Shown: piece after piece, positions 7,704-16,519 of the stretch
Numbering within the stretch: the stretch's first letter is position 1
Layout: each line of letters begins with the position of its first letter
Origin: a virus
DNA: 28,673 nucleotides
Direction: 5' to 3' (one strand)
IMG/VR virus record: IMGVR_UViG_3300009481_000069
Span: 1 to 28,673 of that record
Made by a program: the position numbers and the translations under genes
The notes under the pieces: generated by a model
Databases searched by the model: none
What the model was told of the DNA's origin: nothing
What the model saw: the letters and a program-made list of their open reading frames with translations, nothing else

Positions 7704-7791
7704 CCCAGAAGAAGAGCTGGCAGAGTTTTTATTTCAATGTGATGAGTTTTTTGAAGAGGGTGAGGCTATCCAAAAATTAGGAGGCGAATGA
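7678..7791 (+). CDS. 37-aa acidic protein
   Basis: ATG at 7678 is preceded by GGGAAGGTGG, and the 37-codon frame ends with TGA inside the ATG of the endolysin gene (ATGA overlap). The product (MDVVIRLIDPEEELAEFLFQ, then an acidic stretch) is acidic and helical, without a membrane segment. Both overlaps and the SD favour a real gene that couples translation into the lysin. Function unknown. Confidence 0.5.
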   Translation: MDVVIRLIDPEEELAEFLFQCDEFFEEGEAIQKLGGE

Positions 7792-8621: not shown

Positions 8622-9032
8622 TTGGCTTATACATCCAAAGCAGATCAAAAGCGAGTGAGCGATGCTTATTACCAGGCACACGCGGAAGAGATAAAAGCTA
8701 GTAATCGACTTTGGAAAAAAAACAACCCTACTAAAGTTTATTTAAACAGTGTCAGGCGCAGGGCCAGAGCGAGAAATCTAAAGTTTGATCTGGACTTGGA
8801 GTGGTTTGAACAGCGTTTGACAAAGGGGGTTTGCGAGGTAACAAATTTATTTTTTATAGATTCCGGTAAACCTATGGCTCCTTTTAAGCCAAGTGTGGAT
8901 CGCATTGATCCTAAACGTGGTTACACAAAAAATAATTGCAAAATGGTGGTCTGGATATACAACGCCTGCAAGGGCGACAATTTGCATGAGGACGTAATGA
9001 TGATGGCAAGGGCGCTATGTACTCAATCTTAG
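8622..9032 (+). CDS. HNH-like endonuclease fold protein
   Basis: A 136-aa protein starting at TTG 8622. A basic helical N-terminus (SVRRRARARNLKFDLDLEWF) leads into GVCEVTNLFF, then SVDRIDPKRGYTKNNCKMVV and NACKG. The CEVT, SVDRIDP-GYT-N and N-x-x-K spacing is that of phage HNH/VSR-like nucleases, where the first His is often Asp, as here (Asp93). Only part of the usual cysteine set is present. It could be a packaging-associated nicking nuclease, a free-standing homing endonuclease or a degenerate form. It overlaps the i-spanin gene by 16 nt. Confidence 0.6.
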   Translation: MAYTSKADQKRVSDAYYQAHAEEIKASNRLWKKNNPTKVYLNSVRRRARARNLKFDLDLEWFEQRLTKGVCEVTNLFFIDSGKPMAPFKPSVDRIDPKRGYTKNNCKMVVWIYNACKGDNLHEDVMMMARALCTQS

Positions 9033-9431: not shown

Positions 9432-9891
9432 TCTTGTTGCATGCGGAGAGGCAGTAACTGCCACGGAAGTGCATGAGCAGTGGAAGATGGAAATGCCAGG
9501 GTTTGTCGAGCCTCCAATGAAATACATGATTGGATGGAACGCAAACGAGGTTCCAAGGAACGTGACGATTTATTACGATCTTGATGGAGACAAAGTTCCT
9601 GAGCTGGTGTTTGCTCATCCGATTATTGCCGAAAACCATGCCCCGAAATGTAACGGCGGAGTCAGGGAGGAAGAAGAGTATCACGCGCTTTTAACAACTT
9701 GCCCTTCACCGCATGCGGTAGATTATTTTATAACAAAGCAGTATTCGATGTTTCGCTTGCTGAACGAGAAGGTGTGGTCAAGAATTTATAGGATGGTAGG
9801 TGAAGATGAACGACATGTTGAAAGGTGCGCGGGAAATCGAAGCAAAAGTAAAAGCTTTACGCCTCGAACCCTTGGAGCAATGCGTAGATAA
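9373..9891 (+). CDS. Second phage lipoprotein with a DxDGD calcium-type motif
   Basis: A 172-aa frame from GTG 9373: a basic start (RNIRKRLKQ), hydrophobic core LLIALIIPSLVAC-G with a lipobox, then a secreted domain with TIYYDLDGDKVPELVFAHP. D-x-D-G-D followed by a hydrophobic strand resembles EF-hand/VCBS calcium loops. Two Cys in the mature part (KCNGG, TTCPSP) could form a disulfide. It follows the spanins, so it may help lysis or act at the cell surface of lysogens, for instance in superinfection exclusion. The last 30 codons overlap the terminase small subunit gene and are Arg/Ser-rich. Confidence 0.6.
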   Translation: MFRNIRKRLKQLLIALIIPSLVACGEAVTATEVHEQWKMEMPGFVEPPMKYMIGWNANEVPRNVTIYYDLDGDKVPELVFAHPIIAENHAPKCNGGVREEEEYHALLTTCPSPHAVDYFITKQYSMFRLLNEKVWSRIYRMVGEDERHVERCAGNRSKSKSFTPRTLGAMRR

Positions 9892-15398: not shown

Positions 15399-16519
15399 AT
15401 GTCTAATCAGATTAACAAGGCATTCGAGAGCCAGTTTTCCGACAACTTTATTCATCTTGCGAGCCAGAAGTCTTCCAAGTTGAGTGGAGCTGTTCGCATG
15501 GAACAGGTGAACGATGCAAAGCAATTTTTCTTCGACAGAATGGACACCGTAAACACTTGCGGCGTATAAGTCTTTGAGTTAAAAGGCTTATGTGAAAAAT
15601 GGGGCTAATTCGGTGGAACTCCCTCGCGGACAATACCGAGCCAGCAAACGAGATTACGAAAGGCTCGTTGGGCGTGTGTGACGGTCAGGGTTGAATAAAT
15701 ATAATACCCATAAATGTCCCAGCCGAAAGGCATGATATGACCTGAACTTGGTGGCAACATCAAGAAGCTGAAAATAGAAAACCAGCGATAACAAATTGAA
15801 GCATGGTCCAATCTGTCAGTCGTCACGAAGATACTCCGTTGACCGAAGTACCTTTTTCAAGACGACGCGTTACATTTAACACATACAGAGCCGTTGACTT
15901 GATCGACAATCCTGATCGAGTGAAGATGGCAAAAGACCCAACGTCGCCAACCATGAAACAATTAATGGCAGCGATGAATCGTCAAAAGGATGATGTAATT
16001 ATCTCAGCAGCTCTTGGTTCAGCTTATTCAGTGAATGCGTCAGATACAGCGTCTGCGGTAAGTTTACCTTCGGGACAGCAAATAGCAAATGCAGGAACTG
16101 ATTTAACACTCGCTAAGTTGCTTACAGCAAAGAAAAAACTTTTGGCAAACGATGTGGACCCTAACGAAGAGCCTATGTATGTCATAGTCGGCCCTGACCA
16201 GTTGGAAGCATTGTTGAATGTTACGACAAATACATCAATTGATTTCAATAGTGTTCGTGCGTTGATGAACGCTGAAATCGATACATGGTGTGGATTTAAA
16301 TTTATTATTTCAACCCGCCTTGCTAAGAGCGGAAACATTCGCAGTTGTTTCGCATGGGCGAAGTCTGGACTTGGATTAGCCATGAACGGTACTCCGAATA
16401 TCCGCATCTCTGAGAGAAGCGATAAAAACTATAGTACTCAAGTTTTTGTTGAATGTTCATTGGGCGCGACACGCATCGAGGACGAAAAAGTTGTCCAGAT
16501 TGATTGTGACGAATCCTAA
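15399..16519 (+). CDS. Major capsid protein, split by a group I intron (join 15399..15550, 15799..16519)
   Basis: Exon 1 (152 nt, SD AGGAGAG) encodes MSNQINKAFESQFSDNFIHL to FFFDRMDTV. Exon 2 (721 nt) continues in frame with SMVQSVSRHEDTPLTEVPFS, giving 290 aa, a normal size for this coat family. SRHEDTP...SRRRVTF and AVDLIDNPDRVKM are conserved-looking capsid segments and need the N-terminal part supplied by exon 1. Without splicing, translation stops at TAA 15567 after 56 residues. The ATG at 15803 has no SD and is not a real start. Placement between scaffold and decoration genes supports the call. An HK97 fold is expected but not shown. Confidence 0.87.
15551..15798 (+). ncRNA. Group I self-splicing intron (ORF-less) in the capsid gene
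   Basis: A 248-nt intron with a full core. P1: exon CCGU (15547-15550) with guide GCGG (15559-15562), with U-G at the splice site. P10: CUU (15556-15558) with exon-2 AAG (15799-15801). P2 66-75/82-91. P3 UGGGGC 15600-15605 with GUCCCA 15716-15721. P4 UCGGU 15610-15614 with ACCGA 15635-15639. P5 UCC/GGA (15620-15630). P6 includes AACGAG/CUCGUU (15647-15669). P7 GGUCA 15683-15687 with UGACC 15738-15742. P8 GCC-GAAA-GGC 15722-15731. P9 15747-15764 with a GCAA loop. P9.1 GCUG/CAGC 15767-15786. The terminal G is 15798. CGGTGGAA and GACAATACCGAGC match the conserved core of phage introns such as T4 td. No homing endonuclease lies inside. Confidence 0.93.

Follow-up and report, generated by a model that had tools for sequence, protein, structure and literature searches.

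The interrupted capsid gene

The window, by which we mean the whole stretch of DNA analysed, is a 28,673-base virus record from IMG/VR that carries genes for an integrase, a YqaJ recombinase, a terminase, a connector and an internal virion protein. The capsid open reading frame (ORF) that begins at ATG 15399 ends at TAA 15567–15569, and a second part extends to 16519. A first-pass annotation had placed an ORF-less group I intron between the two parts and called the gene major capsid. The latter assignment agrees with the matches of exon 2 to a phage major head protein (PF19821 Phage_capsid_2, E = 9e-64; phrog_3437, E = 2e-71). The gene is laid out as follows.

15399..15550, + strand: capsid exon 1, 152 nt (50 codons plus 2 nt); N-terminal MS(T/N)QINKAFE...FDRMDTV, which runs on into exon 2 in 27 intron-free relatives
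15551..15798, + strand: group I intron, subgroup IA type, 248 nt, ORF-less on the + strand, as indicated by empty sites, six further copies and model R3 (see below)
15799..16519, + strand: capsid exon 2, 721 nt; PF19821 Phage_capsid_2 / phrog_3437 major head protein

Pelagibacter phages, among them HTVC010P (48% identity), are the isolates nearest to the exon 2 product. By sequence, the connector and the capsid point to a place among the podoviruses near this phage, and the earlier description of the phage as T7-like is not established. An IMG/VR protein search yielded 39 capsid relatives. A blastn search of phage records with the capsid gene gave no match, a pattern search of bacterial genomes for prophage relatives found no close relative, and there was no matching plasmid.

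Intron boundaries and empty sites

Excision of positions 15551–15798 joins 152 + 721 = 873 nt in frame, with codon 51 reading GT|A across the junction. We compared this prediction with the capsid relatives from IMG/VR, 27 of which have no insert and read uninterrupted through ...FDRMDTV|(S/N)MVQ..., which is exactly the predicted splice product. The alignment with intron-free homologs, proposed earlier as a check, thus returned the exact ligated frame, and the interruption of the capsid frame (15399–16519) had been placed correctly to the base. Two more distant capsid alleles (L028 and L029) read MDTV-NMVQ, with GT|TAAT at the intron site. The same insert, 243–267 nt long, occupies the identical base in six other contigs (L007, L008, L014, L016, L023 and L039), and the length differences among the seven copies are confined to the P2 loop and P5.

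The elements that define the splice sites are the following.

15547..15562, + strand: P1, exon CCGU (15547–15550) with GCGG (15559–15562); both strands unchanged in 7/7 intron-bearing alleles
15556..15558, + strand: P10 guide strand CUU, pairing with AAG (15799–15801) of exon 2
15798, + strand: terminal guanosine (omega G) at the 3' splice site, the last intron base ahead of the empty-site junction

The guide CUUGCGG (15556–15562) accordingly pairs with the last four bases of exon 1 in P1 and the first three of exon 2 in P10. It had been proposed to fix both splice sites while keeping the frame, and the empty-site comparison agrees: both sites are fixed by the 27 empty alleles, and the 5' splice site lies at a U-G pair in P1 (U15550-G15559). 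AAG follows the site in 7/7 intron-bearing alleles, compared with 6/27 intron-free ones (Fisher P = 0.002 with five independent intron-bearing alleles counted, uncorrected for kinship). Its presence in all intron-bearing alleles is what P10 requires.

Inside the intron, the coding strand contains no ORF of at least 60 aa, and no intron-encoded homing endonuclease is therefore recognized. On the opposite strand, a 73-aa antisense frame (15605–15826, –) overlaps the intron core and is kept in the other copies; its conservation is probably a by-product of the near identity of the copies.

Secondary structure of the intron

The remaining helices, all on the + strand, are listed below.

15563..15594: P2 hairpin, 15563–15575 with 15582–15594; contains the in-frame stop TAA 15567–15569; loop length variable among relatives
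15600..15605: P3 5' strand UGGGGC, pairing with GUCCCA 15716–15721
15610..15614 with 15635..15639: P4, within 15610–15639
15620..15622 with 15628..15630: P5, which covaries
15640..15642 with 15671..15673: P6, recovered by unguided RNAalifold
15647..15652 with 15664..15669: P6a, with covariation, recovered by unguided RNAalifold
15683..15687: P7 5' strand GGUCA, pairing with UGACC 15738–15742; guanosine-binding helix
15688..15709: P7.1 hairpin, GGGU 15688–15691 / ACCC 15706–15709; double changes in 5/5 pairs of the corresponding helix
15716..15721: P3 3' strand GUCCCA, partner of 15600–15605
15722..15731: P8 hairpin, GCC-GAAA-GGC
15738..15742: P7 3' strand UGACC, partner of 15683–15687
15748..15763: P9 hairpin, UUGGUG-GCAA-CAUCAA; double changes in 4/7 pairs of the corresponding helix; P9 double changes are seen with the sequence-only alignment too
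15767..15786: P9.1 hairpin, GCUG 15767–15770 / CAGC 15783–15786; conserved in the six other copies

Every pair of the P3–P7 pseudoknot, with P4–P6 and P8, is present in the window. The canonical core described in the first-pass annotation stood in its P8 GAAA and P9 GCAA loops and required a small correction in P3. The pairing AUGGG/CCCAU was considered for this helix and rejected, since it shows no covariation and the ACCC there is part of P7.1; it was replaced by UGGGGC/GUCCCA. When P3 was left out of the model, a full 6/6 P3 partner was found between the P7 strands in 55 of 68 distinct related introns, compared with a mean of 17 and a maximum of 26 in 500 shuffles. In most relatives P7 reads GACUA/UAGUC, and its double changes (A-U/G-C, C-G/U-A and U-A/C-G) appear even with the sequence-only alignment. 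The P5 of L007 is longer by 19 nt, an addition that can be drawn by eye as an extended P5 hairpin. Thermodynamic folding alone is unremarkable (z = –1.8), as expected because the core is pseudoknotted.

One or more extra hairpins (P7.1/P7.2) between P7 and P3 are typical of subgroup IA. One P7.1 hairpin is present in the window and P7.2 was not seen, which places the intron in IA as a whole, with no finer division among IA1, IA2 and IA3.

Covariance models and covariation

We searched the window with the Rfam group I model RF00028, and found no match at the gathering score or at E ≤ 10 with permissive filters. Such a miss had been named beforehand as refuting the intron. However, in a control at the gathering score, RF00028 also missed the td and nrdB introns of T4 (positions 136000–148000 of that genome), although it found introns in three other phages. 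The failure to match the window therefore says little and has no force as a refutation.

A model built from the core of the capsid introns (R1) matched IMG/VR loci sharing the P4–P5 motif as well as annotated terminase and polymerase introns, and three relatives that the window's own model found also exceed the threshold of Rfam Intron_gpI at the same places. To lessen circularity, a further model (R3) was made from 11 other introns aligned without the window family, with the structure taken from RNAalifold; these introns had been found through a window-derived pattern, blastn query and model, so that R3 is independent of the window's sequence, but not of the way in which its relatives were sampled. 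R3 matched the window at 15599–15767 (92.2 bits, E = 5.5e-24), gave 82–94 bits for the four other copies tested and 23–34 bits for the T4 td and nrdB introns, and matched 0/17 intron-free capsid loci. Elsewhere in the window, a weak R3 match within a coding frame (9529–9598, +; 15.2 bits, E = 0.006) is probably due to chance.

Over the 11 related introns, 99% of the pairs were standard and double changes occurred in 18 of 31 pairs. The covariation score was 0.48, compared with 0.17 for shuffled alignments (0/500 shuffles as high), and all five covariation measures lay above every one of the 500 shuffles. Strong compensatory change was seen in P3, P5, P7, P7.1 and P9; P4, which the search pattern included, is invariant in the sequence-only set and is uninformative here.

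These results support the view that positions 15551–15798 are almost certainly a self-splicing group I intron of the IA type that interrupts the major capsid gene. The P1–P10 logic and the fold follow from the comparisons, while we infer the chemistry, and splicing in vivo, from the family. In the transcript, exon 1 would pair at its end with the guide CUUGCGG, and a guanosine held by P7 would cut after U15550; exon 1 would then attack after G15798 with P10 holding exon 2, giving a predicted capsid protein of 290 residues.

Alternatively, the insert could be a dead or unspliced remnant, with the capsid produced in two pieces or from the internal start at ATG 15803. There is indeed an ATG at the opening of exon 2, RF00028 has no match, and split proteins arising from unspliced phage insertions have a precedent in Aeh1 nrdA, as cited in PMC7344957. 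We nevertheless regard this as highly improbable: every core helix is intact in 7/7 copies, as are the U-G pair of P1, P10 and the terminal G, the intron-bearing alleles retain the coding sequence of exon 1, and the Rfam miss is explained by the T4 controls.

Probable recent spread between phages

The window's intron shares 95–98% identity with the other copies over aligned bases, whereas exon 2 is 76–78% identical and its third codon positions only 51–56% over the full exon (L039, which has 130 nt of exon 2 only, is left out of this comparison). On a capsid tree built from exon 2 without its first 200 nt, intron presence requires at least five changes, all of them forced by well-supported branches. 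L007 and L004 are otherwise near-identical phages, with and without the intron, respectively. They show no differences in the first 965 nt upstream of the site; downstream, there are 21 differences, all within 199 nt, followed by agreement until +1327. This tract of at most 199 nt looks, by sequence, like co-conversion, a pattern known from T4 td homing (PMC2988022), although recombinational loss would look alike. No donor of the tract was found among the sampled alleles. A further contig, L006 (sample 3300025112), starts exactly at exon 2, as if the assembly had broken at a mixed intron site; the intron-bearing L039 and L040 come from the same sample.

The same data could be read as an old vertical resident, with selection on the ribozyme keeping the sequence near-constant and repeated loss producing the patchiness. 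The intron core is under constraint, and the L004/L007 pattern would also arise if the intron were lost through recombination with an intron-free allele. However, the identity here extends to loops and joining segments, which differ among related introns in other genes, even though capsid third positions are so little alike, and near-identical phages differ in intron presence. We thus consider long vertical residence unlikely, and recent mobility of the intron between phages very likely. The geneless intron has probably spread recently among related marine phages by being copied, along with some exon DNA from downstream, into capsid alleles that lacked it. The most likely route, which we infer, would be a break by a trans-acting endonuclease, followed by recombination.

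Search for a nuclease

We examined intron-bearing contigs for a nuclease gene. None adjoining the capsid gene was found, and L040 and L043, both intron-bearing and covering the counterpart of window position 7788 to the capsid gene, have no recognizable nuclease gene among their ORFs of at least 70 aa. The window itself contains a free-standing gene for an HNH/Endo VII-type nuclease (8622–9032, +) between the lysis and terminase genes, with matches to the phage endonuclease families phrog_3322 (E = 4e-27) and phrog_1035 ('endonuclease VII', E = 5e-14). These matches would fit a trans-acting mover of the intron, as would the T4 precedent of a free-standing nuclease, mobE, that moves an intron in trans (PMC2988022) and F-CphI of cyanophage S-PM2, which has an Endo VII motif (PMC6083498). 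Nonetheless, this gene is separated from the capsid gene by 6.5 kb and is absent at the corresponding place in L040 and L043, as well as from all other fetched loci, and we consider it a very doubtful candidate. Active, ongoing spread of the geneless intron through a marine phage population by way of a nuclease of co-infecting phages, or without a dedicated nuclease, with the capsid gene serving as the dock, is a tentative proposal that we consider somewhat less likely than not.

The mobE gene with the nrdB intron of T4 and F-CphI of S-PM2 are also comparable in that introns with no working nuclease of their own move by recombination with co-conversion (PMC2988022, PMC6083498); unlike in those systems, the partner nuclease of the window intron is putative only.

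Related introns in other phages

The introns of T4 td and nrdB, of the terminase genes of Staphylococcus phage SA2 and Lelliottia phage phD2B, and of the DNA polymerase gene of Vibrio phage S4-7 share the group IA core, and all were found by R1 or R3. They differ from the window intron in occupying other genes and sites, and those of T4 td, T4 nrdB and the phD2B terminase have endonuclease ORFs in their records.

The earlier remark that an intron without an endonuclease in a capsid gene is uncommon holds only in part. Introns in capsid and tail genes of mycobacteriophages, one of them without an endonuclease gene, have been shown to splice (PMC3706429), and a capsid intron of Tuc2009 is cited in the same paper. 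The LittleE capsid intron and the 265-bp BAKA tail intron resemble the window intron in interrupting virion genes, and that of BAKA is also ORF-less; however, they lie in other phages and at other sites, and the LittleE intron encodes a predicted homing endonuclease (PMC3706429). Moreover, we found a related ORF-less IA intron in six IMG/VR contigs (L089, L115, L097, L076, L072 and L095; 86–101 bits with R1). In the three whose capsid gene was read out (L089, L115 and L095), all from unrelated phages, it lies early in an SU10-type major capsid gene (SU10_MCP), which belongs to an unrelated capsid family and is interrupted at a different site. At three further loci (L053, L057 and L068), related introns occur close to head genes, and endonuclease ORFs lie inside or adjoin them.

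Implications

The intron belongs to a known kind. It is of value for its natural presence/absence pairs and for exposing a blind spot of RF00028. It is a base-exact group I intron case that standard Rfam annotation overlooks. Given this blind spot, many IA introns in phage contigs have probably been overlooked, and the genes that contain them annotated as broken. Moreover, because closely related phages differ in whether they carry the intron, the way in which an ORF-less intron moves can be tested directly in natural populations.
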